Positions 4,933 to 49,590 of a DNA stretch of 50,747 nt are shown piece by piece. The DNA comes from a virus: IMG/VR virus record IMGVR_UViG_3300042514_001293, positions 1-50,747 of that record; one strand, 5' to 3'. How positions within the stretch are numbered: the first letter of the stretch is position 1; each line of letters starts with the position of its first letter. Under the pieces are notes generated by a model, which saw only the letters and a list, made by a program, of their open reading frames with translations, was not told the origin of the DNA and searched no databases. Position numbers and translations under genes: made by a program.

Positions 4933-4968
4933 GACACGTTTTAAATAACCAATCACACCCAGTAACAA
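4931..4968 (+). promoter_or_regulatory. TTGACA box plus spaced TAAC repeats before the 126-residue gene
   Basis: A perfect TTGACA lies at 4931-4936 just after the terminator, followed by AAATAACC (4943-4950) and AGTAACA (4961-4967), two TAAC cores 17 bases apart, and then directly the ATG at 4969. There is no convincing -10 box at standard spacing. The order (TTGAC box, TAAC-type half-sites, start codon with no Shine-Dalgarno) repeats at 5990, 19620 and 25665. Confidence 0.45.
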
Positions 4969-5993: not shown

Positions 5994-6024
5994 CCGCAGG
6001 TGTTATCCGATAATAAAAGGTAAC
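5990..6024 (+). promoter_or_regulatory. TTGACC box with GTTATC-N11-GGTAAC dyad
   Basis: TTGACC at 5990-5995, then GTTATC (6002-6007), 11 bases (CGATAATAAAA) and GGTAAC (6019-6024), then AA and the GTG start at 6027. The core TGTTATCCGATA is shared base for base with the leader at 19629, and the spacing matches that of the dyad at 25679. It is a likely late promoter/operator; an AT-rich TAATAA lies about 15 bases after the TTGACC box and could serve as a -10. Confidence 0.6.
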
Positions 6025-6026
6025 AA

Positions 6027-13298: not shown

Positions 13299-13318
13299 GG
13301 TAACAAAAAATAACAACG
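13299..13318 (+). promoter_or_regulatory. Tandem decamer GGTAACAAAA / AATAACAACG
   Basis: Two TAACA cores at 13301 and 13311, exactly 10 bases apart, in the leader of the 132-residue gene (ATG at 13330, preceded by CAACCACACAT, no Shine-Dalgarno). Read on the other strand this is GTTGTTATTTTTTGTTACC, the same half-site seen in the integrase and methyltransferase leaders. Confidence 0.45.
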
Positions 13319-17036: not shown

Positions 17037-19623
17037 CAAAACCCAGTTCGATGACCGCATCGCGGCCACGTTCTCGACGATCCCGTCGAAGTATCCGCCG
17101 CTGCCCAACGATGTCCTGAAGCGGTTCCCGTCGCTGGAGAGCTGGCAGACGGAGCAGTCGCGCCTCATTGCTCGCGTAAGAGAGGCGCTGGACTCGATGG
17201 GCTCGGACTTCGGGATTCCCCTCAACAAGGCGCAAGCTACCCAGGAACTCCTGTCGAAGACGGTGGCGACGCAGTACGACGAGCTGTCGGCCCGCATCAC
17301 GTCCGAGACCACGATCCTAGTGGACGAGAACCAGGCACTCGCGCAGCGCACGACCACGATTGAATCCACGATCAACACGCCGACTACCGGTCTGTTGGCT
17401 CGGATCAACACGGTTGAGACCACCTACGCGACCAAGGACTTCGCTCTAGCGAAGAAGGAAGAAGCCATCACGGCAGCGGTGACATCGGCGAACGGCTACA
17501 CGGCTGGACAGATAACGTCTCTGTCTTCGGTTTACGCCACGCCTACGTTCGTCGAGACGAAAAAGTCCGAGGCGATAACCGCTGCGGTGACTTCGGCGAA
17601 TAGCAGCACTGACGGGAAAATCAGTGCTCTGTCCTCGGTCTATGCCACTCCTTTGTTCGTTGAGACGAAGAAGACTGAAGCCATCGCGGCAGCGGTGACT
17701 TCGGCGAATAGCAGTACTGACGGGAAAATCAGTGCTCTGTCTTCGGTTTACGCTACGCCTACGTTTGTTGAGACGAAAAAGTCCGAAGCAATCTCGGCAG
17801 CGGCGACCGCAGCGACAGGCTACACCGATGGTCAGATAAGCAGCCTGTCCTCGGTTTACGCCACGCCTTTGCAGGTCACGTCCACAGTTAACAACCTCAT
17901 CTCCGCTTCCGTCGGGAGCACATCCGGTACTATCGGAGCAGCCATCGAGACCGAGCGACTGGCGAGGGCAAACGCCGACGGTAACCTGTCCGGTAAATTC
18001 AGCCTCAAGGTGACCGCCGGAAACGTGGTCACGGGCATGAACATCACCAGCTCCACAGGGGCTGGGACGGATGTCAGCTCGGTCACGTTCCTCGCGTCTG
18101 AGTTCAAGATTTTCAACTCAACCACCGGCATCGCGCCCTTTGCCGTGGTAGACGGGGTGGTGATTGCGCAGAACATGTTGATCAGCGGAACGCTCCTGGT
18201 TAGCGGCAGCATCGCCGCGAGCCGGTTGAACTTCGTCCCCGTTAGCTCGACCAACGTAGTCGCTTCGATCAACGCCACGGCTGAAGGCATCCAGATCAGC
18301 GGTTCTAGAATCCAGATTAACGGCAGTACTACATTCTCAAGCGGGTACGATCCTTCGACGAAACTCACACCCGGCAGCGCAGCGGCTGACATCAACGCAA
18401 ACACCACGACAATCAGTGGTGGGAAGATCACGGCGCGTTCTATTTCAGCGAGTCAGATTCAGGCGGGAACGATTACGGCTAACGAGATCTTTGCTGGGAC
18501 GATTACGGCAGCGCAGCTCAACTTTACGCCCGTCACATCAACCAACGTCATCGCCTCGATCAACGCGACGATTGAGGGCGGGTTGCGGATCACCGGGTCA
18601 AAGATCGAGATCAGTGGCAGTACTACATTCTCAAGCGGGTATGATCCTTCAACGAAACTCACACCCGGCAGCGCAGCGGCTGACATCAACGCAAACACCA
18701 CGACAATCAACGGTGGGAAAATTACGGCAAATAGTATCACCGCTTCCCAGATAGACGTATCGACCCTTTCGCTGAGCTCTAGTCAGATCGGCGGGACCGC
18801 AGTTACCCTATCCGCAATTGGTTCGGGGCTAAACATCACCAGCGGCGGGGTAATTTTGAGCGGAACTTCGGCTATCCGAAGCAGTAACTACGTTACCGGT
18901 TCGGCGGGTTGGGCGATAAAGGCCGACGGATCTGTTGAGTTCTCCAGCGGTACGTTCAGGGGAAGCCTCTCCGGTGCCACGGGTACGTTTGCTGGAGCTC
19001 TCGACGTCGGAACAGGGAGGGAACGAAAGCGGATAGAACCTTCAGGGTTGTATGTCGGTGATCTGGTTGCATTTAATAATGTTGGGTTAGACACGGTCCT
19101 TTATTTTACCAGCTATATTACTGCGTCGAGGACGATGTACTTTCGCAGTGGCGGATATACGCCTGAGATTCGCATAGGCGATAGCTTGTACACGGTTTTT
19201 GAAAATCTTGGTTTTTCCGCAAGTCACGACGGGGCTTTTGCTCGTAGTATGACCGTCGGCCTCAGCGGGTTGACTGTACGGGGCGGTGGATTGAACGTAC
19301 AGAACGGCGGGGTAAACCAGGCGACGATCAGTGCCGCCGGCGACGCAACTTTTTTAGGGGCCGTTACCACGACCAACAACACCTACTCGGGCAGTTTCTC
19401 CAGCAACGGAAACGCCACGTTCGGATCGCTGACGAACACGCCTTTCTCCAACGCAGCCATCGATGCATTTACCAACACGACCTTCTATTTTCACCCGAAC
19501 GGCAACAACAGCGTGAGCGGCGGTGAAGACGGCGGCACAGTGGGCGCGACCACCGGCACCTACATCGCAATTCGGTACAACGGACGCACCGTCTGGGTGC
19601 CCTTCTTTACTGCTTTACCTTGA
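17023..19623 (+). CDS. Repeat-rich tail fibre / central fibre protein (J/DUF1983-like)
   Basis: 866 residues, overlapping the nozzle gene by 14 bases. Residues 1-139 are a helical attachment region. Residues 140-283 (17440-17871) are four tandem copies of a 36-residue unit, FVETKKSEAI..AVTSAN... ending SSVYATP(T/L), probably a coiled or trimeric shaft. Residues 310-560 resemble DUF1983, the C-terminal module of tail-tip host-specificity proteins, and hold two copies of GSTTFSSGYDPSTKLTPGSA. The end (NGNNSVSGGEDGGTVGATTG) is a Gly/Asn-rich tip. It probably contacts the host surface together with the S74 fibre. Confidence 0.7.
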   Translation: MALSDKTQFDDRIAATFSTIPSKYPPLPNDVLKRFPSLESWQTEQSRLIARVREALDSMGSDFGIPLNKAQATQELLSKTVATQYDELSARITSETTILVDENQALAQRTTTIESTINTPTTGLLARINTVETTYATKDFALAKKEEAITAAVTSANGYTAGQITSLSSVYATPTFVETKKSEAITAAVTSANSSTDGKISALSSVYATPLFVETKKTEAIAAAVTSANSSTDGKISALSSVYATPTFVETKKSEAISAAATAATGYTDGQISSLSSVYATPLQVTSTVNNLISASVGSTSGTIGAAIETERLARANADGNLSGKFSLKVTAGNVVTGMNITSSTGAGTDVSSVTFLASEFKIFNSTTGIAPFAVVDGVVIAQNMLISGTLLVSGSIAASRLNFVPVSSTNVVASINATAEGIQISGSRIQINGSTTFSSGYDPSTKLTPGSAAADINANTTTISGGKITARSISASQIQAGTITANEIFAGTITAAQLNFTPVTSTNVIASINATIEGGLRITGSKIEISGSTTFSSGYDPSTKLTPGSAAADINANTTTINGGKITANSITASQIDVSTLSLSSSQIGGTAVTLSAIGSGLNITSGGVILSGTSAIRSSNYVTGSAGWAIKADGSVEFSSGTFRGSLSGATGTFAGALDVGTGRERKRIEPSGLYVGDLVAFNNVGLDTVLYFTSYITASRTMYFRSGGYTPEIRIGDSLYTVFENLGFSASHDGAFARSMTVGLSGLTVRGGGLNVQNGGVNQATISAAGDATFLGAVTTTNNTYSGSFSSNGNATFGSLTNTPFSNAAIDAFTNTTFYFHPNGNNSVSGGEDGGTVGATTGTYIAIRYNGRTVWVPFFTALP
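17440..17871 (+). repeat. Four tandem 108-bp repeats inside the fibre gene
   Basis: Each unit encodes 36 residues ending in SSVYATP(T/L). Units 2 and 3 are most alike (both contain NSSTDGKISALSS); units 1 and 4 carry GYT.GQI.SLSS instead. In-frame expansion or contraction by recombination would change shaft length. Confidence 0.85.
18322..18718 (+). repeat. Pair of nearly identical 103-bp direct repeats
   Basis: 18322-18424 and 18616-18718, offset 294 bases, encode the same stretch from GSTTFSSGYDPSTKL to the Asn-Thr-Thr-rich end (differences are a few silent or single bases such as TACGA/TATGA and TCGACG/TCAACG). This is a recent or gene-converted duplication in the DUF1983-like part. Confidence 0.85.
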
Positions 19624-19652
19624 CCTGATGTTATCCGATACGCATAAGTAAC
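19620..19652 (+). promoter_or_regulatory. TTGACC box with GTTATC-N11-AGTAAC dyad
   Basis: TTGACC at 19620-19625 (overlapping the fibre stop), GTTATC at 19630-19635, 11 bases, AGTAAC at 19647-19652, then AATCAACCG and ATG at 19662. TGTTATCCGATA is identical to the element at 6001. CATAAG at 17 bases from TTGACC could act as a -10. Confidence 0.6.
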
Positions 19653-19661
19653 AATCAACCG

Positions 19662-25664: not shown

Positions 25665-25701
25665 TTGACCGTCTAATTGTTACCGAATCACATCAGGTAA
25701 C
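25665..25701 (+). promoter_or_regulatory. TTGACC box with perfect GTTACC-N11-GGTAAC dyad
   Basis: TTGACC 25665-25670; GTTACC 25679-25684; 11 bases; GGTAAC 25696-25701; then ACG? leader and the ATG at 25705. The arms are perfect 6-base complements. The 13 bases TTGTTACCGAATC are shared with the minus-strand element at 40251. ACATCA or similar is the only -10 candidate. This leader drives the 3050-residue gene. Confidence 0.6.
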
Positions 25702-25704
25702 ACG

Positions 25705-34857
<9,153 letters not shown>

Positions 34858-36234: not shown

Positions 36235-36283
36235 CGACGTTGGGGCTGAACTGAGAATGGAGGTTCGAGCCCTCCCCACAAAT
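36191..36283 (+). other. tRNA-like element with a 28-base anticodon loop; possible attachment site
   Basis: The element folds almost as a tRNA: acceptor TTTGTGG (36191-36197) pairs perfectly with CCACAAA (36276-36282), U8, D arm GTC-CAAAGGATAC-GAC (36200-36215), stem TCAGT/ACTGA (36217-36221, 36250-36254; plus C-G outside), variable GAAT, and T arm GGAGG-TTCGAGC-CCTCC (36259-36275). The anticodon loop is 28 bases instead of 7 and contains its own hairpin (CCGGCGT/ACGTTGG). No CCA is encoded. It lies 300 bases before integrase 1, so it may be a tRNA-derived attP, an inactivated phage tRNA, or a tRNA with an insert. The 5' half overlaps the CDS before it. Confidence 0.5.
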
Positions 36284-36384: not shown

Positions 36385-36484
36385 CCCACAAACGCAGGCA
36401 AACGCCGGTTGTCGAATATCCACTAAATCCTGCTGTGAAACAACTATTGTTATCCGGTACATCCCCGTTGGCCGCCCCAGAGAC

Positions 36485-36530: not shown

Positions 36531-36560
36531 TTGACCGAGATTACCGGTTGTTACCCAGTG
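36531..36560 (+). promoter_or_regulatory. Promoter-operator of integrase 1 (TTGACC plus tandem TTACC decamers)
   Basis: TTGACC (36531-36536) is followed by GATTACCGGT and TGTTACCCAG, two TTACC cores at 36541 and 36551, exactly one helical turn apart. The integrase ATG follows at 36583 after an A/C-rich leader. A protein bound to the decamers would cover the -35 to -10 region. The mirror-image promoter at 40251 has the same order (TTGAC, TTACCGGTTGTTACC). Confidence 0.6.
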
Positions 36561-36582
36561 GCAAACGAAACCAACACGAAAA

Positions 36583-37827
36583 ATGCAACCAGATGCAAAC
36601 GGAAATAGCCAAAACAGCATGAGTTTTGGGTCACAAATCAAGCCGGGCGCTCGCGAATATGCCAACGACGCACCCATCATTAGCCGGGTCTCCAAGATCT
36701 ACCGTCCCGACCGGGCCAGTCCTCATCTGGTCCAGTGGGGGCGCGGCCAAGACCGCCGAACCGAATCGTTCAAAACCCCCGAGGAGCAGGAGGCACGGTA
36801 CGCTGAGATAGCCGGACGCCTTCAGCGGAATGGAGACGACTTCGTCTTCAATCGGCAGGCCCAGATCGACTGGGCTGCGTTCATGTCGACGATTGGCGAC
36901 GCATCCTGGGTGGATGTCGTCGCGGGTTGGCGCGAGAACCTGAAGCGCCATGAGCTGGTCCGATCCCGCAAGACGGTAGGCGAGGCGGCGAAGGAATACA
37001 TCGCCCACTGCCTGTCGCTGAGGGATACCGGGCAGATGTCGCCCGATACGTTTCGTCAAAAAAGACAGAAGATCAGTTTCCTCGGTACGAAATTCAACAC
37101 GGTCCCGCTGTGCGATGTAACTACTGAGATGCTTGAACAGTGGCTCGATGAGTTGCTCGGCGAGCTCGGCCTGTCGGCGGCGGGCACCTTTAACAACTAC
37201 CTCAAACCCGTCCGTACTTTTTTTAATTTCAACAAGAAGCACGTCGCGCTCAACCCCGCTGTTGGCATCCCTCTGCGCAATGCTAGCATCGATGAAGTGG
37301 GGGTGCTCACCCCGAAGCAGACCGCTCGACTGTTCGCTTATGCCCTGAAGCACCGGCCCGAGACCCTCGGTCGGCTCGCTCTGGAGGCATTTGCAGGGTT
37401 ACGTTTCACTTCCGCTGCAACGCTAGCGAAGGAGGAAATTAACTTCGAGGACAAAGGGATCACCCTTCTGGCGCGAAAAATTAAAACTCGCCGTCGTCGT
37501 TACATCGACGGGTTGCCTGAGAACTTTTGGGCTTGGATCGATAAGACGACCGAAGCGTGCTGGCGAATGAAGAGGAGTCAGTGGATGCACATAAAGACCG
37601 ACGTGTTTGAAGGGGCTGACGTACCCCATCCGCAAAACTGCCTGCGCCACTCGTTCTGCACGTACCACGTCTCGGCTTACAAGAACCCGGGGCTGACGGC
37701 GACTCTCCTCTGCCACCAGAATCAGGCTCAGTTGTGGGGGCACTACAACGGAATCGCTAGCCAAGCAGCAGGGCTGACCTACTTCTCGATTAAGCCCGAG
37801 AACGTGGAGCAGATCGCGGCGGGCTAA
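36583..37827 (+). CDS. Tyrosine recombinase / integrase 1 (N-for-H box II)
   Basis: 414 residues. N-terminal arm-binding part (1-120), core-binding helices (about 125-225: VGEAAKEYIAHCLSL, TFNNYLKPVRTFFNFNKK) and catalytic domain (about 235-405). Visible catalytic residues: Arg274 (FAGLRFTS), Lys in the KIKTRRRRYI hairpin, Arg355-His356 in NCLRHSF, His387 (WGHYNG) and Tyr388 as the most likely nucleophile. The first His of the usual HxxR is Asn352. I remember this NxLRHSF.(S/T)YH form from integrases of Verrucomicrobiota and relatives. With the tRNA-like element upstream it is a good candidate for the phage's own integration enzyme. Its start has no Shine-Dalgarno. Confidence 0.8.
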   Translation: MQPDANGNSQNSMSFGSQIKPGAREYANDAPIISRVSKIYRPDRASPHLVQWGRGQDRRTESFKTPEEQEARYAEIAGRLQRNGDDFVFNRQAQIDWAAFMSTIGDASWVDVVAGWRENLKRHELVRSRKTVGEAAKEYIAHCLSLRDTGQMSPDTFRQKRQKISFLGTKFNTVPLCDVTTEMLEQWLDELLGELGLSAAGTFNNYLKPVRTFFNFNKKHVALNPAVGIPLRNASIDEVGVLTPKQTARLFAYALKHRPETLGRLALEAFAGLRFTSAATLAKEEINFEDKGITLLARKIKTRRRRYIDGLPENFWAWIDKTTEACWRMKRSQWMHIKTDVFEGADVPHPQNCLRHSFCTYHVSAYKNPGLTATLLCHQNQAQLWGHYNGIASQAAGLTYFSIKPENVEQIAAG

Positions 37828-37846
37828 GCCGTCTCGTCTTTCCCTT

Positions 37847-37868
37847 GAGCGGTGAAGAAAGGCCGCTC
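37847..37868. terminator. Possible terminator between convergent genes
   Basis: GAGCGG (37847-37852) pairs with CCGCTC (37863-37868); flanking CCC/GGG extend the stem across a 2x2 mismatch. No clear T run on either strand. It lies between integrase 1 and the end of the minus-strand operon, where a bidirectional stop is expected. Confidence 0.3.
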
Positions 37869-37905
37869 TTGGGTAAGCTCGATGTCCGCGTGGAACTCGG
37901 GGTCT

Positions 37906-38112
37906 CTAGTACAGGTTGGCTACGCGGCGGTTCGCCCAGAAGTGATCGGAGCCCTCGCGAACGGCGTCGGCTAAATCGCGGTAGTAGCCTACTGAGGTAG
38001 GGGAATCCCGGTGGCGTTTAGGGGTACGCGCCTGCTTCTTGGTTGATGCGCGCTGCCACTTATCGCGGGAGAGACGCCTCGATGTGGGCTGTTCTTCGGT
38101 TGGCTTGGTCAT
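37906..38112 (-). CDS. Small basic protein, 68 residues
   Basis: The last gene of the minus-strand operon. The ATG at 38112 is chosen because it overlaps the upstream stop as ATGA. Sequence MTKPTEEQPTSRRLSRDKWQ, a Lys/Arg-rich middle (STKKQARTPKRHRDS) and a C-terminal helix (GYYRDLADAVREGSDHFWAN). No family recognised. The charge suggests nucleic-acid contact; a role as an excisionase-like accessory protein next to the integrases is only a guess. Confidence 0.5.
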   Translation of the reverse strand: MTKPTEEQPTSRRLSRDKWQRASTKKQARTPKRHRDSPTSVGYYRDLADAVREGSDHFWANRRVANLY

Positions 38113-38411
38113 GCTGCGACTTGTGCTGAATGTGGCACGGCTCGGTATTGGTACAGCCCCTTGCCGAGGTACCTCTTGTCGACTGTCCAAGAACCGAAGC
38201 GCGGTTTTCGCATGTGTCGCAACTGGGCGGACACCGAAGCGGGCGGGTCTCGGGTAACCTTGCTGATCTGGGATAACGTACGCCAGGCACCGTCGCCCAT
38301 TAAATCTCTAACCCGTACGTGCTGATGCACGAGCCGAGCCCGATCACGCGTGTCCTCGTAACCGGCCCCGGTGAATTCTAGTTGGTGGTTCATAGTGAAA
38401 ATCTCAGGCAT
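38109..38411 (-). CDS. Winged-helix DNA-binding protein
   Basis: 100 residues; ATG at 38411 overlaps the stop of integrase 2 by 8 bases (a later ATG at MNHQ is possible). The core VRDLMGDGAWRTLSQISKVT, then PPASVSAQLRHMRKPRFGSW and a wing-like VDKRYLGKGLYQYR is a winged-helix fold of a type common in phages (G.WRTL..I...T..P.ASVSA.LR.LRK..FG). Such proteins occur as replication accessory factors or regulators. Coupled to integrase 2, it may control recombination direction or transcription of the operon. Confidence 0.7.
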   Translation of the reverse strand: MPEIFTMNHQLEFTGAGYEDTRDRARLVHQHVRVRDLMGDGAWRTLSQISKVTRDPPASVSAQLRHMRKPRFGSWTVDKRYLGKGLYQYRAVPHSAQVAA

Positions 38412-39417
38412 GCACGTATCCCTCGGTCGTAACCGTGGAGGTATGACCCAGCTTGACGCGGATCTCGTCGATGGTGTCGCCGTGCGCAGCTCGGCGGGAT
38501 GCGAACGTGTGGCGCAGGCAGTGGAATGATTTACCCTCGATGCCGAGGCGGCGCAGGATCCGCCCGAAGTACGTGCTGTGCGTAGCCCGCTTGTTCAGAT
38601 CCTCCGTGAGCGCGGCGTGAACGGGGAATACGTACTGGCTGGAGTTGCGAAAGAGGGTACGCAGCAGCGCCTCGGTCTCGCCAAGGAGCGGCATTTCGAT
38701 CCGGCGGTCACGCTTGTCGGTCCAGACGATGAGCCGGCCCTGCTTCGCGAAGCTGGCCCACTCAAGCTGGGAGATGTCGGATAGGCGCAGCCCGTAGTTG
38801 AGCGACAGATGAATCGCGACCTTCCAGAACGGGTCTTCGATAGTCGACAGGACATCGAGATCCAGCTCGGTGAAGGGCTCGCGGGTCTGCTTCTCCTTCT
38901 GCTCGAAGGTAAGCCGGTGCATGCGCACTTTGCTGAGGCCAGCCGGATTGCGGACGATGAAGCCCTCGTCGGTGCAGACCTTAAAGAAATTATCGAGCGA
39001 CGAGCGTCGTGCGCTGCGAGTCGAAGCAGTCGTGCCGTCGTGGGCGTTGACGTAGTCGTCGACATGGTGGAACGAGGCCATCGTGATCGGCTTGTCGGCT
39101 AGCTTGGTCACGACGAGGAACCGCCGGATGTTGGCCTCGTAGCCGTACAGCGTAGTGGGGGACAGACACAGCTTGGTGTCGGCTAGGGCGCGCCACTTCA
39201 CGAGGGCTTGCTCGCCGGTGATGCGGCTGTCGCTAGTGAGTCGTTGGATGGCCTCGGCAGTAAGGAGCCTCGCCTTCGCGGTGAACTCGATGTCTTCTAA
39301 CTTGGCGGCTTTGGCTAGCCGTTTCGCCACGGCACGGTCTTTGGTGTCGAGGTTGATGGGGGTACTTCCGGTCAGGTGGGCGAAGTAAATGCCCTTATGG
39401 TTGGGTTTCAGTTTCAT
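38404..39417 (-). CDS. Tyrosine recombinase / integrase 2 (canonical)
   Basis: 337 residues with a full set of catalytic residues: Arg211 (NYGLRLSD), Lys near KRDRRIEMP, His299-Arg302-His303 (FHCLRHTF), His325 (KLGHTS) and Tyr334 in EGYVHA, three residues from the end. Residues 80-165 form the core-binding domain (LSPTTLYGYEANIRRFLVVT). It overlaps the upstream gene by 23 bases, so it is part of the early operon. It differs in length, box II and order from integrase 1. Possible roles: integration or excision partner, dimer resolution, or inversion of a segment. Confidence 0.88.
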   Translation of the reverse strand: MKLKPNHKGIYFAHLTGSTPINLDTKDRAVAKRLAKAAKLEDIEFTAKARLLTAEAIQRLTSDSRITGEQALVKWRALADTKLCLSPTTLYGYEANIRRFLVVTKLADKPITMASFHHVDDYVNAHDGTTASTRSARRSSLDNFFKVCTDEGFIVRNPAGLSKVRMHRLTFEQKEKQTREPFTELDLDVLSTIEDPFWKVAIHLSLNYGLRLSDISQLEWASFAKQGRLIVWTDKRDRRIEMPLLGETEALLRTLFRNSSQYVFPVHAALTEDLNKRATHSTYFGRILRRLGIEGKSFHCLRHTFASRRAAHGDTIDEIRVKLGHTSTVTTEGYVHA

Positions 39418-39874
39418 TTGTGTTGTAGATGTCGAAGCCGCCGCCTCCGCGACGCCCGACGTTTTGCTTTAACTCTTTCCCGATCTTCGACAGGCGGATC
39501 TTCGCCTCATCGATGACCAAATACTTTTCGCGGGCGCTGATCCGCGTCTCGCGAACGCTGCACATGCGGCGCATGTGGCGTTGGATGGAGTGCTCCCGGA
39601 GGATGACTCCCTTCTCTTGCCGAAGTTCTCGCTCGGCGATCTTCGCCTGGGTCATCAGCTCTTGGTACTTCGTGTCCAGAGCATTGGCTTTCAAGGTGGC
39701 TTCCTTCTCGCGGGCTTTCGACTCGACGATGCGGAGTTCGTACCGAGCGATTGCCGACCGCATCTCGTCGATGGCCCGGTCTTGGTCGCAGATCAGGGAC
39801 ATCTCCTGCTCCATGTTGTCGAACAGGTAGCCGAATTTCTCTGGGATCTTGGTCAGCATGGGGATGGCGCTCAT
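39395..39874 (-). CDS. Coiled-coil protein, 159 residues
   Basis: ATG at 39874 is chosen because it overlaps the upstream stop (ATGA). After a short start (MSAIPMLTKIPEKFGYLFDN) the chain is almost entirely charged helix (IDEMRSAIARYELRIVESKA, EATLKANALDTKYQELMTQA), then Arg-rich helices and a Gly-rich end (GRRGGGGFDIYNTNETE). No family recognised. Might bind DNA or act as an assembly scaffold for the recombinase region. Confidence 0.6.
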   Translation of the reverse strand: MSAIPMLTKIPEKFGYLFDNMEQEMSLICDQDRAIDEMRSAIARYELRIVESKAREKEATLKANALDTKYQELMTQAKIAERELRQEKGVILREHSIQRHMRRMCSVRETRISAREKYLVIDEAKIRLSKIGKELKQNVGRRGGGGFDIYNTNETETQP

Positions 39875-40224
39875 GGTTTGCGAAGGTGCTCGGCGTACGT
39901 GGTGAGGAGTTCCTGAAAGTAGAGCCAATCTGGGCCGCGCTTAAGGTAGTCGAAGCGACCGAGCTTCAGGTAGCGGTTGGCGTTGCGGACTTGGTCGCGG
40001 TTGGCGAAGTCGACGCCGCACACTTTGCAGAGCGACTCCATGTGCCGCACGTTCACGTCGTCCCAGCTCGTTAAGAGCGAGAGACGACGGATGTCGGCGA
40101 GCGTGAGCGCACCGCGTGAGGCGACTACGATCTCGGCTTCGGTGAGTGCGTTTCCTCGGCGGTCCCTAGCCATCAGGCGAACCAGTACCGGAGGAAACCG
40201 TTTAAGTTTCGTCCATATTCCCAT
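39871..40224 (-). CDS. Helix-turn-helix-like phage protein, 117 residues
   Basis: The central part, NALTEAEIVVASRGALTLADIRRLS followed by TSWDDVNVRHMESLCKVCGVD, fits a pattern I know from phage proteins of this size (LT.AEIA...GL....V..IS....W..V.......C..CG.D), with an HTH in the first half. The remainder (NRYLKLGRFDYLKRGPDWLYF) is basic and helical. It is the first gene downstream of the tandem-decamer promoter at 40251, so it may bind that or a related site. Overlaps the next gene by ATGA. Confidence 0.65.
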   Translation of the reverse strand: MGIWTKLKRFPPVLVRLMARDRRGNALTEAEIVVASRGALTLADIRRLSLLTSWDDVNVRHMESLCKVCGVDFANRDQVRNANRYLKLGRFDYLKRGPDWLYFQELLTTYAEHLRKP

Positions 40225-40250
40225 GTCAGTTTGTGTGAACTGGAACGATT

Positions 40251-40273
40251 CGGTAACAACCGGTAACAGTCAA
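40251..40273 (-). promoter_or_regulatory. Promoter-operator: TTGACT plus tandem TTACC decamers
   Basis: On the minus strand TTGACT (40273-40268) is followed by GTTACCGGTT and GTTACCGAAT, two GTTACC cores 10 bases apart. This mirrors the integrase 1 promoter. It sits in the gap before the 117-residue HTH-like gene and would start transcription of the integrase 2 sub-operon. Confidence 0.6.
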
Positions 40274-40308
40274 GTACCGAACGGTGCGAGGTGGGGTTGT
40301 GCGTGTTC

Positions 40309-41088
40309 TTACTGGTCAGTCGGAATCTGCATTTCCTTTTTCCGTAAATCGGAAACGCGGATGACCTCACGGGCAAAGTCGGCTTGAGCGAGCTGCTCGG
40401 CCAGCAGCTCCGTGCCGCAGTACTCGCTGTCGATGTAGGCATCGAACTTGGTTACCATGAGCTTCAGAGCGGAGAGCAGGTTGGCTTCCCTTTCCCCTGC
40501 CATACTGAGGAAGCGGGCTTGCTCCTCAACCTCGCTGATCAAATCAATCTCGCGATCATCGCGGGACATGAGGAGTAGCTTTTGCCACTTGGCGTTGTCG
40601 GCCTCGACCTTCTCGGCACGGTTCGTCTCTTCGTTCAAAATGGCCTCGAGGTCTTGGCAGTGGTGAATGCGGTTCTGCTGGCCCTTCACGAACTGGTGAA
40701 TGATTTCGGGCGTGCCGCCCCAGGCCTTGAGCACCGACCAGTCGGCGAGTTCAGCTTCGGCTTTCTCGGCGCGGTTGACGATTTCAGTCATGCGCTCCCC
40801 GAACAAGTGCGCAATCTGGCCCTCGGTAAGCGTGCGGAGGCAGTGAGCGTGCAGGTTGTGCGGGTCTGCGAGCCATTCCTTCAACCGCTCCACCTCAGCG
40901 CGGAGGCGGCGGCGGTCCGCATCTGCACCAAATCTCAGGCGTTCGGTTTTGGTGAGTTCGGTTTCGAGGGTGCGGGCAACTGATGCTGGCACATAATCAA
41001 TAGCATTGGAGCATCCGGTTACATCCTCCTGATAAATTTGGATGCACTCGGCATCTGTTCGTGGCGTGGGTGATTTGGGTGGGTTCAT
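40309..41088 (-). CDS. TPRTDA coiled-coil protein, paralogue 1
   Basis: 259 residues. Begins MNPPKSPTPRTDAECIQIYQ, then VPASVARTLETELTKTERLR and long coiled coil (RRRLRAEVERLKEWLADP; AEKAEAELADWSVLKAW; NRAEKVEADNAKWQKLLLMS). The start motif TPRTDA followed by VP..(V/F)AR.LE.EL is a recurring phage/prophage pattern I associate with Verrucomicrobiota and relatives. It shares the start motif and coiled-coil style with the next gene upstream, a local duplication. Function unknown. Overlaps that gene by ATGA. Confidence 0.65.
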   Translation of the reverse strand: MNPPKSPTPRTDAECIQIYQEDVTGCSNAIDYVPASVARTLETELTKTERLRFGADADRRRLRAEVERLKEWLADPHNLHAHCLRTLTEGQIAHLFGERMTEIVNRAEKAEAELADWSVLKAWGGTPEIIHQFVKGQQNRIHHCQDLEAILNEETNRAEKVEADNAKWQKLLLMSRDDREIDLISEVEEQARFLSMAGEREANLLSALKLMVTKFDAYIDSEYCGTELLAEQLAQADFAREVIRVSDLRKKEMQIPTDQ

Positions 41089-41615
41089 GGTTTTGCCTCG
41101 TTGAGAACTGTAAGCATCTTGGCTGCGGTCTCACCATCGCTACCATCGTGAAAGAACTGCACGCTGGCACGGTTGATTATGTCGTTACGCCGCTCCACCT
41201 CGGCGCGGAGGCGGCTCGCTTCGTTGGCGTTGTGCTCGCGCTCCTGCGACATCTCGGCGGCAACGGTTTTCCACCGCTCCACCTCGGCGCGGAGGCGCGT
41301 GAGTTCGGCGGTGGCGCAGCACCAGCACCCGACACCTGCTTTTCGTTCTGCGTCGGTGTGGTTTAAGCAGGTGTGCATCCAGCTCCCAAGTGCTTTCAAC
41401 CTCTCGCACTCCTCCTTCGCGGCGGCGAGTTTCGTTTCTGCTGCGTCCCACTTCCGGCACGCGAGGGCGTTTAACGAGCAAGCGCCCGCGAGTTCGCGTT
41501 CAATTAGCTTCATCTCACCGGCGAGCGAATACATGGTTGCGCCGTTTGCGAAGTAGGCTGCATCCGTTCTCGGCGTCGGCGCGAGGGTGGGCGTAGGTTG
41601 ATCGGGTGGGTTCAT
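41085..41615 (-). CDS. TPRTDA coiled-coil protein, paralogue 2
   Basis: 176 residues; the ATG at 41615 (MNPPDQPTP) overlaps the upstream stop (ATGA) and has a GGGAGGAGG Shine-Dalgarno. The start TPTPRTDAAYFANG matches paralogue 1; the rest is coiled coil with LTRLRAEVERWKTVAAEMSQ and ASRLRAEVERRNDIINRASV (LRAEVER twice) and a Cys pair (VGCWCCATAE). The coding DNA contains a repeated GCTCCACCTCGGCGCGGAGGCG segment. Function unknown. Confidence 0.65.
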   Translation of the reverse strand: MNPPDQPTPTLAPTPRTDAAYFANGATMYSLAGEMKLIERELAGACSLNALACRKWDAAETKLAAAKEECERLKALGSWMHTCLNHTDAERKAGVGCWCCATAELTRLRAEVERWKTVAAEMSQEREHNANEASRLRAEVERRNDIINRASVQFFHDGSDGETAAKMLTVLNEAKP

Positions 41616-41968
41616 TCGTCCTCCTCCCACTTGCCAATTGTTTTTAAGAAAGCTTTGGCGCGTTGGGCGGCGGTGGCGTGGACGATAGCGCATCGCATCT
41701 CGGGTTGGCCGTGCGCTAACCATAGCCATCCGCGAAAGGCGGCTTCTCTATCGTCCCGCAACACCCCCTCCGCTTGGTGCATGGCGTTCAAGTCTTTGAG
41801 GTAGTCGGGGATGTCATGCTTGAACACTAAAAGCCCACTAGGATTCATAACCCAAGTTTCCCAATCACGGGAAACCCAGCCTTCTTTCTTGGCTAGGCAG
41901 TCGGGGTGATCGTGCATCTTCCAGCCACACGCTTCAGCGATGGCGATACGTTGTTGTTTAGGGTTCAT
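41612..41968 (-). CDS. Phage ABA-sandwich-type protein, 118 residues
   Basis: Begins MNPKQQRIAIAEACGWKMHD, then IPDYLKDLNAMHQAEGVLRD and ATAAQRAKAFLKTIGKWEE. This order (N..QR.AIAEA.GW, DYL.DLNAMHEAE, ATAAQRAEAFL.T.G.W) fits the phage family described as the ABA sandwich domain, typical of phages of PVC and related bacteria in my memory. Function unknown. Start has a strong AAGGAGGATAACAA Shine-Dalgarno. Coupled by ATGA to the gene on either side. Confidence 0.75.
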   Translation of the reverse strand: MNPKQQRIAIAEACGWKMHDHPDCLAKKEGWVSRDWETWVMNPSGLLVFKHDIPDYLKDLNAMHQAEGVLRDDREAAFRGWLWLAHGQPEMRCAIVHATAAQRAKAFLKTIGKWEEDE

Positions 41969-42381
41969 TTGTTATCCTCCTTCTTTGGGCGGTTGAGGCA
42001 GAAGTACTCGGCCTTGACCTCCTCGATCACACGGATCTCGGGGTAGTTATCGGCGAGTTCGATGGAGTCCTCGCCGTAGATGACGCCGTCCTTCCACGAG
42101 TACATCAGGGTCGGGGTCACGATGGTCTCGTCGGGGCAGTTAATGTGCAGCGCGTGGAACGGATGACAGGGTAGGGTGGGGAACCAGTCGTTGGACTTGA
42201 AGTACGCCGAGCTGCGGAAGGCGGCGGCGCTGCCCGCGATGGACTTGGCCGCGTCCTCCATGGGGAGGGTGACCCCGAGCTCGTCGGTCACGCGGTCGAG
42301 TTGAGCGACCGCACACGGGGCGAGGGTGAGGGTGGGGATTAGCCCGAGGGATTCTCGGGGTACGTATTTTATTAGGTCCAT
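41965..42381 (-). CDS. Hypothetical protein, 138 residues
   Basis: Starts MDLIKYVPRESLGLIPTLTL; the middle has an amphipathic helix and KSNDWFPTLPCHPFHALHIN, then an acidic C-terminal domain (EDSIELADNYPEIRVIEEVK). Several His/Cys residues (CHPFHALHINC) could bind metal, but the spacing matches no motif I know. Two bases separate it from the 92-residue gene upstream. Function unknown. Confidence 0.6.
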   Translation of the reverse strand: MDLIKYVPRESLGLIPTLTLAPCAVAQLDRVTDELGVTLPMEDAAKSIAGSAAAFRSSAYFKSNDWFPTLPCHPFHALHINCPDETIVTPTLMYSWKDGVIYGEDSIELADNYPEIRVIEEVKAEYFCLNRPKKEDNK

Positions 42382-42383
42382 AG

Positions 42384-42662
42384 TTAGGCAGCGGTGCGGT
42401 GTTCGGAGTCCTCTTTGATGCGGGCGATCAACTCAAGGTCGTCGACGGGGAGATCCTCCATGGCCCTAGCGGCGATGAACTTCAGGTCGGCGGCGCAGCG
42501 CATGATGCAGTCGACCTTGGTCTGGAGTTCCCGTCGGGCGACGTCGTCGTAGGCATAGCCCGCCTCCTTCTCCCAGATGCGAGCGAGGTTCACCCAGTGG
42601 GCGCGTTGACGGAGGAGTTTATCGCACGTACGGGCGTGGATTTTTCGGTAGTCGGGTGTCAT
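42384..42662 (-). CDS. Hypothetical helical protein, 92 residues
   Basis: ATG at 42662 (MTPDYRKIHARTCDKLL) is chosen; the longer upstream frame is low-complexity Ser/Pro/Arg-rich and runs through the Gp88-like gene. All-alpha, with KLLRQRAHWVNLARIWEKEA and CIMRCAADLKFIAARAM. Lies directly after the Gp88-like stop at 42664 with no gap. Function unknown. Confidence 0.6.
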   Translation of the reverse strand: MTPDYRKIHARTCDKLLRQRAHWVNLARIWEKEAGYAYDDVARRELQTKVDCIMRCAADLKFIAARAMEDLPVDDLELIARIKEDSEHRTAA

Positions 42663-42663
42663 G

Positions 42664-43395
42664 TTAGGTGATGGCGGCGAGTTTCTTTTTGCTGTACCCC
42701 GTGATCCCAGCCTTTCGCAATTCGCGAATAGCGAAAGCGGCGGCGGTGCCTTTGCGTTGGTTGCCGTGGAGCAGAAGGGCGAACGACTCGCCTCCGTCGT
42801 AGGCGTGCGTGTCGTCGTGATCGATCTCGAGACCGAGGGCGGCGGCTTGCTCCTCGGCGAAGACCACCTTGGCGGTCTTGAGCCCACCCGTGGACGCATC
42901 GTAGCGGCCACCGAGCGAGGCGGTGAGGATCAGGTTGTCGGGGATGAACTCCTGCAACCGACGCCAGAGGTTAACCGACTTGGTGTACGAGTAGAAGCGT
43001 ACGTCCCAGCGGGCGCGGGCGACGTCCATCCACGCAAGGAAGTACGCCTCGCTGAAGTAGTCACCGCCCACATGGATCCGAACGATCTTGGCCTTCCTGG
43101 GCAGGCTGGCGGCGATCAACTGGGCCATGCCCTCGCGGGTCGCGGCGGCTTTGAGGAGCTCGAAGTTAGCCCAGCGTGACTTGCGCACGGATGGGTACAC
43201 CGCTTCGGCCTGCGCGGCGAAGCAGACGAACTCTTGCTGAGGACCGTGCGACATCTTGCCGGTCGTGCGGTCAGCCTTGGCAAGGCACTTCAGTGCGCCG
43301 GGGCAGGTGTACCCTGCTGGCAGACTGAAGGTGTAGATGTCTTTCGTGAGTTTCGCGTTACCTTTCTGGAACGATAGCTTTGATTTGGTTTTCAT
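42664..43395 (-). CDS. Gp88-like protein
   Basis: 243 residues from the ATG at 43395 (MKTKSKLSFQKGNAKL), overlapping the methyltransferase stop as ATGA. FSLPAGYTCPGALKCLAKAD, then GPQQEFVCFAAQAEAVYPSV, SRWANFELLKAA, VRIHVGGDYFSEAYFLAWMD and VRFYSYTKSVNLW form the pattern of the phage Gp88 family (a CPGA...C...C cluster followed by a GGD/YF motif), often near DNA-modification genes. Its function is not known; the Cys set suggests metal or cluster binding. A tandem-decamer element lies 18 bases before its start, inside the methyltransferase end. Confidence 0.75.
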   Translation of the reverse strand: MKTKSKLSFQKGNAKLTKDIYTFSLPAGYTCPGALKCLAKADRTTGKMSHGPQQEFVCFAAQAEAVYPSVRKSRWANFELLKAAATREGMAQLIAASLPRKAKIVRIHVGGDYFSEAYFLAWMDVARARWDVRFYSYTKSVNLWRRLQEFIPDNLILTASLGGRYDASTGGLKTAKVVFAEEQAAALGLEIDHDDTHAYDGGESFALLLHGNQRKGTAAAFAIRELRKAGITGYSKKKLAAIT

Positions 43396-44306
43396 TTTAT
43401 TGCATTGTTGTCTGATACCAACGGATAACAACCGCTGGAAAGTTGAAGCGCGTGGGCTTCGTTGAGGAGCGTGCGGAACGCTAAGCGGCACGTAGCTGGG
43501 ACGACTCCGTTGCCGAGGAGGCGGAGCTCATCGGTACGATTGTCGCCGGCGAGGCACAGCTCGGCATAACCCAGCCCACGGGTAGACCCATGAGCGTCTC
43601 GACCCAGCGGGGGTTGAGCGCAAGCGACACGGGGCGGCTCCCATTCGTGCTGAGGTTGACCCGGACGACTGGGCCACTCGCCATCTCGGCGGCGATCACA
43701 CCCACCAACCGATCCTTCCGGTTGCGGTGACTCCCGTCGGGGTTCTTCCCGTCCGGTGAGCAGCCGGTGGTATCCTTCCAGTCGCGTGTCGTGGCGGTGG
43801 GCCAGGACGAAGATGCGCTTTCGCTGGTGGGGCGCGCCCACTTCAGCCGCGCTGAATATGCCCCACGCCGTAGCGTAACCGATTCGGTCCAGCTCTGCGA
43901 TGACGTCGCGTAATCCGAGGGAGATGTGACCCTCGACGTTCTCGAAGAAGCAAAGCTCGGGTCGCATGAGGACAATTCCATCTGCGATCCAAGGCCAGAG
44001 GTGACGGGGGTCGTCTCTGCCGAGGCGCTTGCCGACGGTACTGAACGGCTGGCAGGGGTACCCGCCACTGAGGATATCCACTCGGTCTCGAAAGCTTTCC
44101 CACGGGAAGGATCTAAGATCCGTCCACAGAGGTGCCGAGTCCATGAGTCCCGCTTCCATTTTCGCGACCAAGTTCGCAGCGGCAAAGGCTTCGATCTCAC
44201 TAACAGCGATTGTGCGCAGACCTTGGATTGCTCCTCGGAGTCCGAGATCAATGCCGCCGTACCCTGCACAGAGGCTAACGTGTGTAACGACTTTGGAAGT
44301 ATCCAT
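43392..44306 (-). CDS. DNA (cytosine-5) methyltransferase
   Basis: 304 residues with the standard C5-methyltransferase motifs in order: I LCAGYGGIDLGL (12-23, SAM binding), IV GGYPCQPFS with catalytic Cys85, VI ENVEGH (122-127), VIII QRKRIFVLAH (161-170), and IX/X RTDELRLLGNGVVPATC (258-273). The segment between VIII and IX (about 171-255) is the short target-recognition region (WPSRPGQPQHEWEPPRV). The protein probably protects phage DNA from restriction. The last 20 residues (QLSSGCYPLVSDNNAIK) overlap a decamer promoter and are unlikely to be structural. A second frame of 276 codons overlaps it almost wholly. Confidence 0.9.
   Translation of the reverse strand: MDTSKVVTHVSLCAGYGGIDLGLRGAIQGLRTIAVSEIEAFAAANLVAKMEAGLMDSAPLWTDLRSFPWESFRDRVDILSGGYPCQPFSTVGKRLGRDDPRHLWPWIADGIVLMRPELCFFENVEGHISLGLRDVIAELDRIGYATAWGIFSAAEVGAPHQRKRIFVLAHRHDTRLEGYHRLLTGREEPRRESPQPEGSVGGCDRRRDGEWPSRPGQPQHEWEPPRVACAQPPLGRDAHGSTRGLGYAELCLAGDNRTDELRLLGNGVVPATCRLAFRTLLNEAHALQLSSGCYPLVSDNNAIK
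43413..43432 (-). promoter_or_regulatory. Tandem decamer inside the methyltransferase end
   Basis: On the minus strand GTTGTTATCC and GTTGGTATCA; on the plus strand GATACCAAC (43414-43422) and GATAACAAC (43424-43432), period 10. It lies 18 bases upstream of the Gp88-like start and inside the last codons of the methyltransferase, and so could start a Gp88-led transcript. Confidence 0.5.
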
Positions 44307-44311
44307 GTCAT
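43481..44311 (-). CDS. Possible overlapping gene inside the methyltransferase
   Basis: 276 codons in another frame, with a start ATG 5 bases upstream of the methyltransferase ATG (AACATGACATGGATAC). The product has SSSWPTATTRDWKD (167-180) and LNPRWVETLMGLPVGW (232-247), peptide patterns that I know from annotated phage proteins (SWPTP..RDWKD; LNP.WVE.LMG.P.GW). This makes real translation plausible, because GC-rich shadow frames do not usually carry recognisable family motifs; but those motifs may be database shadows of the same methyltransferase family. No methyltransferase catalytic motif is in this frame. Confidence 0.3.
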   Translation of the reverse strand: MTWILPKSLHTLASVQGTAALISDSEEQSKVCAQSLLVRSKPLPLRTWSRKWKRDSWTRHLCGRILDPSRGKAFETEWISSVAGTPASRSVPSASASAETTPVTSGLGSQMELSSCDPSFASSRTSRVTSPSDYATSSQSWTESVTLRRGAYSARLKWARPTSESASSSWPTATTRDWKDTTGCSPDGKNPDGSHRNRKDRLVGVIAAEMASGPVVRVNLSTNGSRPVSLALNPRWVETLMGLPVGWVMPSCASPATIVPMSSASSATESSQLRAA

Positions 44312-44344
44312 GTTATTTTATTGAGGTCATTACGTGCGGCTAAC

Positions 44345-44364
44345 GGATACCAACCGGTAACAAC
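44345..44364 (-). promoter_or_regulatory. Tandem decamer before the methyltransferase
   Basis: Plus-strand GATACCAAC (44346-44354) and GGTAACAAC (44356-44364), 10 bases apart; minus-strand reading GTTGTTACCG and GTTGGTATCC. Forty bases upstream of the methyltransferase ATG; the intervening leader is A/T-rich (CAATAAAATAACATG). Confidence 0.55.
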
Positions 44365-47437: not shown

Positions 47438-48835
47438 TTAACGCCCAGGTTCGGCGGCTCCGACCACGCGCTTGCCAGCCCGCATCTCTTCAAACGCGGT
47501 GACTGCGCTGGACAGGCTAATGAACCGCTTGGCCTTGATGCGCCGAGCTGTGGCAAACGCACTCGTCGTCAGTGCTGCTGAGCTGCTGTCGTTGCAGCCG
47601 GTGATGTACCCATCGCAGACCCACAGGCGCGGCTCGGCTTGCTTGCCCAGCCACGTCAGCGCAGGTCCGTCGATGATGTTACCGCCGCCGACTTGAGCGC
47701 GGACGCGCTCGATGGCCTTGACGTCCGCACGATGCCCGCCTCGGGCGATCACCGTGATCGAACCCGTGTCCGCCTTGCCCGAGTACATCGCCACGGTGGC
47801 GCAGGGCGCAGCCGTGATGATGCGTTCGATGTCCTCCATGGACAGGCTCATCGAACCCGATGCATCGACGAGCACCGTGCCACCGGGTGCTTTGCGCCGA
47901 CGCCCGAAGATGCGACCGTCGATGTTGTAGCGGTGCATGAACCGAGGCACCGTGCCCGAGTCATGCGCCCGCTCCCGCCGACCGACCTGTGCTTCCTTGA
48001 TCGGGTGGGTCAGGGCCACCGAGCGCACGTCTGCCGTGCCGAACTCGATCTCGTGCCTCGTCTTGTGGAGCTCCTCGCGGACCATCCGGGTATCTCGATC
48101 AAGCCGTTCGGTCTCCTCCTTGTTAACCGCTGAGTCCGGGTTCGGACGCGGCGGCGTCATGCCGATGCGGTCATGGACGAACTTCGCCATGCGCAGCATG
48201 TCCTTCCACTTTGGGTAGTTCCGTGGCCCCCGAGTGGGGTGGATCACGGAGTGGGATTCCTCCAGGATCTTCTGCGCCTCCGTTCCAGCGTAGCGCAGCA
48301 CCTTCTTCTGCTCGTCGTTGAGCGGACTCGGCGGCGCGGGTTCTGCCTTTCCGTCCTCGTCGGGCTCCGCTGGAATGCCCGCTAACTGGCGGATGACTTT
48401 CTTCAGGCGCAGCCAGTCACCGGTGCGGTGAATTGAAAGCGCCATCTTCACCAGCGGGGAGATGACGTCGGGCTGGTTGACCAACCGCAGGAGCATAGCT
48501 TCGATCTCGCCCTCGGTCATGTGCCCAACGAGGCGCGGCTGCATGCGCATCCGCTCGCTGAGCAGGGCATGCATCCTGTAGTCCTCGCAGGACTGCAACA
48601 GATCGGGCGCAACCCCGATCTTCTCCGCCTCCTTCGCGGGGGATTTCTTGGGGGTCCACTTGGCATGAGCCATCTCATGCAGGCGGACGAAGTGATCTTC
48701 TGCGCTGTCCGACAAGGGCACGAACATCTCGCGCTTGCTGAGGTCCACCCGCGCCTGAGAGCTGGAGTCAATCGACCACCGCTCTCCGTCAATCGCCTCG
48801 GGTAAGGGGGCGATTGGTACGTACTGGTAGCTCAT
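47438..48835 (-). CDS. VWA-domain protein with N-terminal HEMAH motif
   Basis: 465 residues. Residues 53-57 are HEMAH in RLHEMAHAKW, followed by ED..MH (SCEDYRMHALL, about 82-92), a zincin-like metal site similar to putative metallopeptidase domains found with VWA modules (DUF2201-type). Residues 170-290 are a Pro/charged linker and helices (NKEETERLDRDTRMVREELH). The C-terminal VWA domain has a MIDAS beginning DASGS at 324 (TVLVDASGSMSLSMED) and a later DG near VCDGYI. With the MoxR ATPase directly upstream (TAATG overlap) it forms a MoxR-VWA pair, which in bacteria assembles or inserts metals into other proteins. Target unknown. Confidence 0.8.
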   Translation of the reverse strand: MSYQYVPIAPLPEAIDGERWSIDSSSQARVDLSKREMFVPLSDSAEDHFVRLHEMAHAKWTPKKSPAKEAEKIGVAPDLLQSCEDYRMHALLSERMRMQPRLVGHMTEGEIEAMLLRLVNQPDVISPLVKMALSIHRTGDWLRLKKVIRQLAGIPAEPDEDGKAEPAPPSPLNDEQKKVLRYAGTEAQKILEESHSVIHPTRGPRNYPKWKDMLRMAKFVHDRIGMTPPRPNPDSAVNKEETERLDRDTRMVREELHKTRHEIEFGTADVRSVALTHPIKEAQVGRRERAHDSGTVPRFMHRYNIDGRIFGRRRKAPGGTVLVDASGSMSLSMEDIERIITAAPCATVAMYSGKADTGSITVIARGGHRADVKAIERVRAQVGGGNIIDGPALTWLGKQAEPRLWVCDGYITGCNDSSSAALTTSAFATARRIKAKRFISLSSAVTAFEEMRAGKRVVGAAEPGR

Positions 48836-49533
48836 TAGGCAGCAGCCGCGATGGTGAGCGAGGCGAGTACGTCCTTAGCCCGCACCCCGAAGCACGCTTC
48901 GGCGGCAGAGGTGTGACCGATGCGAGAACGCAGCGCGCCGTAAGCGAACCACGAACGCAGCGAGATCCGCAGCGCGGGGTCAGGGTTAACGCAGCTACCC
49001 TGCGCAGCGTTGCGTAGATCCTCGGGCAACGCGGCGATGGCGTTGGGGTTCGGATCGGTGACCTCTATGGTCACAGGGAAGCGGTCCTGCAATGCAGGCG
49101 GCAGGTCTGCGGGCACCCCGTTCATCGTGCCGATGCACTGGAAATCCTTGTGCGGATAGACGGTCTCACCCGTGGGCAAGGTCATCATGGCCGAGGGGCC
49201 GTCGTCGAGGAGCGACAGGAAGAACGAGAGCGTGTCGCCCGAAGCCTTGTCGATTTCGTTGACCACGAGCCGGTCGCCATTGCGCCACGCCTTGAGAGCG
49301 GGGCCGTCCTGCCAGATGAACTCGCCACCCTTGGGTACGTAGTGCCCGCGCAACTCGGCGGAGGGCATCTCGTCGGTGAGGGTCACGTTGTGGATGCCGC
49401 CTGCGCCGCCCGAGTGGGGCTCGTGGATGGCGACGTACGATTTGCCCGTGCCGGGAGGACCGTATTGCAAGATGCGGCCCGTGTTCTTGATGAGGAGCTT
49501 CGTGAGTTCCCAGTTGGTTTTGTTCTTAGCCAT
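48835..49533 (-). CDS. MoxR-type AAA+ ATPase
   Basis: 232 residues. Walker A GPPGTGKS (25-32), Walker B LVVNEID (89-95), sensor 1 IGTMN (134-138), arginine finger DRF (150-152). The sequence PSAELRGHYVPKGGEFIWQDGPALKAW is the MoxR/CobS substrate-loop pattern. It ends soon after the ATPase core, so it lacks the usual C-terminal extension. It overlaps the VWA gene by 1 base and is probably its partner. Its leader has no Shine-Dalgarno and carries the decamer-type element at 49543-49590. It is likely the first gene of the MoxR-VWA unit. Confidence 0.88.
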   Translation of the reverse strand: MAKNKTNWELTKLLIKNTGRILQYGPPGTGKSYVAIHEPHSGGAGGIHNVTLTDEMPSAELRGHYVPKGGEFIWQDGPALKAWRNGDRLVVNEIDKASGDTLSFFLSLLDDGPSAMMTLPTGETVYPHKDFQCIGTMNGVPADLPPALQDRFPVTIEVTDPNPNAIAALPEDLRNAAQGSCVNPDPALRISLRSWFAYGALRSRIGHTSAAEACFGVRAKDVLASLTIAAAA

Positions 49534-49542
49534 ATTATTTTG

Positions 49543-49590
49543 GATTACCTATCGTTACCTGACGTTTTGTTTTAGTATCCGTTAACAACG
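49543..49590 (-). promoter_or_regulatory. Decamer repeats before the MoxR unit
   Basis: Plus-strand ATTACCT (49544-49550) and GTTACCT (49554-49560) are 10 bases apart, and GTATCCGTTAAC follows at 49575-49586. On the minus strand this is a GTTAACGGATAC box upstream of AGGTAACGATAGGTAAT. It lies 10 to 55 bases before the MoxR ATG and after the stop of the small membrane gene. Confidence 0.5.

Follow-up and report, generated by a model that had tools for sequence, protein, structure and literature searches.

In this work, we analyzed a window of 50,747 bp, the whole of the IMG/VR phage record IMGVR_UViG_3300042514_001293, for a short repeated element located in the leaders of its genes. The element is a half-site with the unit TTGTTAYC, in which, according to a position matrix, TTGTTA is nearly invariant and is followed by Y and C. 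Half-sites occur 8-99 bp ahead of the start codon in 17 leaders of early, integrase and late genes or operons, mostly as arrays of several copies (Table 1). A second IMG/VR contig, IMGVR_UViG_3300042519_001902 (68,584 bp), matches the window at >99.99% and has a terminal overlap of 127 bp; because of this overlap, the complete phage is read as a circle of 68,457 bp, ~17.7 kb of which is absent from the window. The half-site leaders in that absent part include the DNA polymerase leader and that of the gene preceding the terminase. Positions refer to the window unless "contig" is stated, with window = contig + 25,682 for contig 1-25,065 and window = contig - 42,775 from contig 42,776 on.

Half-site arrays in early, integrase and late leaders

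The rightward transcription units of the phage comprise the late, virion-like genes and integrase 1, and the leftward units the replication and small early genes. Gene starts were taken from a simple coding-potential script, and the names of unassigned virion genes are positional only. The six places at which the initial annotation had reported two copies of the element all carry them, with a spacing of exactly 10 bp, the pairs at 49542-49559 and 13299-13316 being the weaker ones. The arrays were indeed found in front of early and integrase units, as the same annotation held, but are not confined to them. Because late structural operons bear the same arrays, the reading changes from control of early genes and integrase to control of the whole phage. 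A further claim was that one pair lies within the last codons of a methyltransferase gene. This minus-strand pair (43414-43431) does lie inside the 3' end of that gene, but it belongs to the leader of GP88, the gene that follows, which starts at 43395.

Table 1. Half-site arrays, associated TTGAC boxes, recombinases and candidate regulators of the phage.
Feature	Position	Strand	Description
Array before integrase 1	36538-36555	+	AGATTACC and TTGTTACC, 10 bp apart; pair ATTACCGGTTGTTACC at 36540-36555
TTGACC box of integrase 1 array	36531-36536		
Isolated half-site TTGTTATC	36447-36454	+	Between late operon end and terminator preceding integrase 1
Array before 117-aa gene (39871-40224, -)	40252-40269	-	Two TTGTTACC-type copies, 10 bp apart
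TTGACT box of 117-aa gene array	40268-40273	-	
Array before GP88 gene (42664-43395, -)	43405-43431	-	TTGTTATC, TTGGTATC (-), facing TTGTTGTC (+), all on 10-bp grid
Array before C5-methyltransferase gene (43392-44306, -)	44346-44363	-	TTGTTACC and TTGGTATC
Array before AAA ATPase gene (48835-49533, -)	49542-49588	both	GGATTACC, TCGTTACC (+, 10 bp apart); TTGTTAAC (-, 29-30 bp away)
Array before virion-cluster gene 13330 (+)	13299-13316	-	TTGTTACC and TTGTTATT, opposed to gene direction
Head-to-head 17-bp array TTGTTAAAAACTAACAA	2894-2910		Before gene 2920 (+), 565-aa virion-cluster protein
Single half-site TTGTTACT	4961-4968	-	Abuts start codon of gene 4969 (+); TTGACA box 4931
Three-site array before gene 6027 (+)	6000-6026		GTGTTATC (+), TTATTATC (-), TTGTTACC (-), 10-bp grid
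TTGACC box of gene 6027 array	5990		
Facing half-sites before gene 19662 (+)	19628-19654		ATGTTATC (+), TTGTTACT (-), 20 bp apart; TTGACC box ~8 bp upstream
Facing half-sites before 3050-aa gene 25705 (+)	25677-25703		TTGTTACC (+), GTGTTACC (-), 20 bp apart
TTGACC box of gene 25705 array	25665		
Tyrosine recombinase 1 (integrase 1)	36583-37827	+	Verrucomicrobiota-typical family
Tyrosine recombinase 2 (integrase 2)	38404-39417	-	Canonical
100-residue winged-helix-like protein	38109-38411		Gene directly follows integrase 2
Ribbon-helix-helix (RHH)-like protein 1, 54 residues	contig 37360-37524 (L088:17360-17524)	-	Heads leftward replication operon; outside window
RHH-like protein 2	contig 37961-38152 (L088:17961-18152)	+	Outside window
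RHH-like protein 3	contig 38300-38521 (L088:18300-18521)	+	Outside window

Helical phase of the half-sites

Half-sites were counted on both strands of the complete genome as TTGTTAYC with at most one mismatch or as exact TTGTTA. Non-coding DNA (6.7 kb) contains 44 of them and genes (62 kb) contain 67. In non-coding DNA, 17 of the 18 close pairs (<45 bp) fall on a grid of 10, 20, 30 or 40 bp (±1), the distances being 9, 10 (nine pairs), 20 (three pairs), 22, 29, 30, 39 and 40 bp. Within genes, three of five close pairs are on the grid, all three belonging to the GP88 leader in the methyltransferase 3' end; apart from this leader, the copies within genes show no phasing. The initial annotation had named the count of paired copies in leaders against genes as one way to refute it, and its proposal withstands this count.

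The leaders are AT-richer than the genes and TTGTTA is a short word, so that the arrays could be suspected of being a compositional or repeat artefact. However, when Markov models were built from the same DNA and run 200 times per order, the mean number of grid pairs was 0.3 for order 2 (maximum 3), 0.9 for order 3 (maximum 4) and 2.5 for order 4 (maximum 9), far short of the phase observed. These statistics, together with the absence of phase among the copies in genes, refute the artefact, whose residual probability we regard as negligible, and bear out the earlier statement that composition does not account for the signal. Furthermore, TTGTTAT occurs 14 times in the genome against 1.5 expected, TTGTTAC 15 against 3.7, and TAACAAC 21 against 2.9. 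A two-copy pattern with three mismatches allowed gave 8 matches against 1.8 expected, a number that no shuffle reached, and unseeded motif discovery in non-coding DNA converged on TTGTTA/TAACAA, among AT-rich alternatives. A first position matrix had been dropped for its drift toward AT-rich DNA.

Relation of the arrays to TTGAC boxes and their orientation

Of the 17 array leaders, 8 have a TTGAC box in the sense direction up to 35 bp upstream, at 4-30 bp from the array, where 0.36 would be expected (p 8e-10); of 57 other gene starts, 2 have one. Such boxes had been noted before only two arrays; the boxes exist, and their number is eight. The repeats, their phase, its confinement to leaders and the link to TTGAC are matters of direct observation. 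Because these eight arrays come after a -35-like TTGAC box, the arrays appear, for the most part, to cover the core promoter, which makes a repressor likely rather than an activator.

The presence of the motif in nearly every leader, beside TTGAC boxes, might also be expected if a sigma factor of phage or host recognised it as a promoter element, or if it were the site of an activator that has to contact RNA polymerase. Neither its orientation nor its distance to the TTGAC box or to the start codon is fixed, however, and ~100 kb of DNA surrounding the relatives of integrase and terminase in Verrucomicrobiota holds no 10-bp pair (one at 11), so that the motif is not a common host element. We thus consider this explanation most unlikely. 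The initial suggestion of one regulator that binds cooperatively on a helix-phased array agrees with the statistics and with where the copies lie; its variant of a sigma-like factor does not, given the two orientations, the head-to-tail and head-to-head copies and the variable distances. Because facing and spacing vary, a sigma-read element and an oriented stoperator, as described for phage L5 (see below), are both disfavoured.

Copies are arranged head-to-tail with a 10-bp step, as in TTGTTACCGG-TTGTTACC, or head-to-head with a step of 10, 20 or 30 bp, as in TTGTTATAAAATAACAA and TTGTTACC-N11-GGTAACAC, facing pairs being about as frequent as direct ones, and the arrays take either orientation relative to the downstream gene. 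This bears on the possibility that they are sites of a recombination directionality factor (RDF) of the Apl/Cox type doubling as a regulator, such as the 100-residue winged-helix-like protein. Apl, Cox and Xis bind with strong cooperativity to direct repeats spaced by one helix turn, and Apl of coliphage 186 and Cox of P2 have them near integrase and early promoters (PMC7498355). Direct repeats with this spacing are present here, integrase 1 is directly preceded by one array, and the gene of the 100-residue protein overlaps the end of integrase 2. In contrast, RDF protomers bind head-to-tail, whereas head-to-head copies are about equally common in this phage; known RDFs act at attachment (att) sites and pR-pL, not at ~17 leaders including those of virion genes. 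By description, Apl and Cox sites are found only at att and pR-pL, only head-to-tail and with low sequence specificity (PMC7498355). The 100-residue protein, which the initial annotation had put forward as a binder, fares poorly, as its match in PHROG is weak and of unknown function, its only phage relative is a 47%-identical segment of a mycobacteriophage protein annotated as exonuclease, and its AlphaFold model is unusable (predicted local distance difference test, pLDDT, 40). An RDF is, in our judgment, a quite unlikely explanation.

Proposed mechanism and candidate regulators

Altogether, the best explanation is that the repeats are operators controlling most promoters of this temperate phage. 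A phage-wide operator system is very probable. One phage regulator would bind the TTGTTAYC half-sites and thereby control most promoters. Because the helical phase holds across direct and facing copies, protomers bound to copies 10, 20, 30 or 40 bp apart would lie on the same face of the DNA, with neighbours in contact. Protomers on one DNA face are the usual sign of cooperative contact. In about half of the leaders, the array starts just 3' of a TTGAC box and would extend from the spacer across the -10 region and over the short 5' leader; its occupation should then sterically block RNA polymerase. The number and quality of half-sites would set the strength of repression at each promoter, and the system would most likely serve to maintain lysogeny or to time early against late genes.

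Three short RHH-like genes sit in the divergence between the leftward early and the rightward late operons. RHH dimers of the plasmid protein omega bind direct and inverted repeat arrays in comparable ways (PMC5016525). Because such arrays suit RHH dimers and because of the place of these genes, we propose a small phage RHH protein as the binder, foremost the 54-residue RHH-like protein 1. This protein matches TIGR04563 (E=6e-4, not reaching the curated cut-off), a "ribbon-helix-helix DNA binding domain protein" of a Streptomyces phage (36% identity, E=0.02), Arc-like repressors in PHROG (E ~0.06) and, among PDB matches, CdbA (E=0.35), a database support that appears weak but consistent. The strand RS[VI]SF is common to proteins 1 and 3 (RSVSF and RSISF), and the best PDB match of alignment A1 is the antitoxin Rv0298 (E=0.015). 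That the binder belongs to the RHH family is a tentative assignment, and the full statement, in which the repeats are repressive operators of one phage-encoded regulator that is an RHH protein, we put forward with like reserve; cooperative binding, repression and the RHH identity of the binder are what we infer from the arrangement of the sites and from the protein matches. It is more doubtful that a single RHH protein, or two sharing one operator code (proteins 1 and 3), silences and times the entire genome including the late virion operons, with promoter strength set by how many half-sites a 10-bp-phased array has, in which order they stand and how they face.

Several observations weigh against the RHH-repressor model. 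No tail-to-tail pairs exist in the phage genome, which is unexpected for a fully symmetric dimer; the TTGTTA core is asymmetric, and only the strongest copies show a clear pseudo-dyad, GRT-N4-AYC. The -10 boxes could not be recognized in the leaders, promoter overlap being read from TTGAC alone, and some of these boxes share bases with the upstream gene's stop codon. As to the binder, the RHH assignment draws on weak matches. RHH-like proteins 2 and 3 have no database match of their own and were assigned by eye and by alignment A1. The AlphaFold model of protein 1, computed without an alignment, is a single, uninformative helix. In front of the RHH genes themselves, half-sites are only single or degraded, with no clear autoregulation. 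Finally, the collections searched yielded no relative carrying the motif.

The binder might instead be another phage protein, namely the 117-residue protein, a recombinase-fold repressor like MrpR of phage SPbeta, or a protein that goes unrecognized. There is a precedent in the SPBRE elements of SPbeta, which were found in silico long before their recombinase-fold master repressor was identified (PMC10516654), and the phage studied here has two tyrosine recombinase genes. However, recombinase 1 retains R274, H378 and Y388, shared with an Akkermansia phage integrase, and recombinase 2 shows the usual catalytic residues by eye; because these residues are retained, neither looks like a dead repressor. 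The gene of the 117-residue protein, also named initially as a possible binder, is preceded by its own array, but none of the libraries searched yielded a detectable relative of the protein. We therefore hold a binder of this kind to be unlikely, and an RHH protein stays our working candidate.

Host, relatives and neighbouring features

The two tyrosine recombinase genes are convergent within one phage. The integrase 1 family is present in 132 of 388 Verrucomicrobiota genomes, and its only phage relatives are in two Akkermansia phages. The Verrucomicrobiota genome G380 (60% GC) contains 164 bp (L146:3143-3306) that match the 3' end of integrase 1 and its downstream hairpin with 86% identity. 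Because of these relatives and this piece, the host is probably a verrucomicrobium. The piece is isolated within host DNA and is perhaps the relic of a close relative of the phage. To our knowledge, almost nothing has been described of regulation in phages of Verrucomicrobiota.

GenBank phages gave no DNA match to the window and no match to the 467-aa in-window part of a 773-aa gene. Scans of IMG/VR with five proteins returned only two contigs, both of the same phage. The terminase has only remote matches in Verrucomicrobiota genomes, the 565-aa protein has none in 177 of these genomes, and the methyltransferase is too widespread to point to relatives. The motif is not present before the integrase in integrase relatives, and a literature search on the LexA/SOS motif gave no matching motif. 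A motif scan of IMG/VR returned 27 stretches, about the number estimated by chance. In two foreign phages, a similar word forms longer tandem arrays with a 10-bp period, L116 at ~8944-9000 (GGTTGTTACC/GGTTGCGACC) and L104 at ~5374-5560 (TTGTTATC/CTGCTATC), the latter directly preceding an integrase gene; the 10-periodic search pattern is biased toward tandem repeats, and both are leads, not evidence.

Other features lie apart from the arrays. Upstream of integrase 1, a sequence resembling a tRNA T-arm (GGAGGTTCGAGCCCTCCCCACA, 36260-36281) is a possible attP core, a 28-base stretch of which has no exact match among 84,980 genomes. Gene 17023-19623 contains two internal stretches (18238-18434 and 18529-18728, ~200 bp) alike at 84%. 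Outside the window, ~2.3 kb at contig 25707-28018 (L088:5707-8018) contains TATATATATA, is nearly devoid of coding potential and is a possible origin or RNA region. An Rfam scan of the window found no RNA.

Comparison with known systems

Dispersed operators are known from other phages. The stoperators of L5 and cluster A phages resemble the present sites in being more than 20 short sites dispersed over promoters and intergenic gaps of one genome; they differ in being single asymmetric 13-mers oriented with transcription and bound by a monomeric two-domain repressor (PMC9283540). The sites described here form phased multi-copy arrays in both orientations and are not oriented with transcription. 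SPBRE of SPbeta is likewise a repeated element at many intergenic places, bound by the master repressor MrpR, but it is a 15-bp motif with a recombinase-fold binder, and no 10-bp phased array is described in the available part of the source (PMC10516654).

Omega and ParG act in plasmid partition and copy control, which sets them apart from a phage-wide system. The repeats of omega are 7 bp long and unspaced. Both are similar to the system proposed here in that RHH dimers occupy arrays of short repeats whose copy number tunes promoter strength (PMC5016525).

The closest likeness in function is to F55 of the archaeal virus SSV1, an RHH regulator of lysogeny whose tandem repeats lie within or beside several viral promoters and whose repression keeps the lysogenic state; RHH proteins also oligomerise on viral operators (PMC5569661). 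Tandem repeats about one turn apart likewise extend over several promoters of the present phage, as judged from the TTGAC boxes. F55, however, belongs to an archaeal virus and acts at four promoters with ATAGATAG repeats, whereas here ~17 leaders, late virion operons and head-to-head copies are involved, and an RHH protein is a candidate binder.

If confirmed, the system would provide a compact and readable operator code spanning a whole phage. Its promoters, with between one and three half-sites that face in various ways, would form a naturally occurring set on which cooperativity could be tested. Helical phase among short leader words would, moreover, be a practical route to such regulons in phages without relatives. 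None of the known systems above matches in all tested features, and the arrays are a variant of dispersed phage operators that, if confirmed, would offer a rare bacterial counterpart to the archaeal RHH lysogeny regulator F55.

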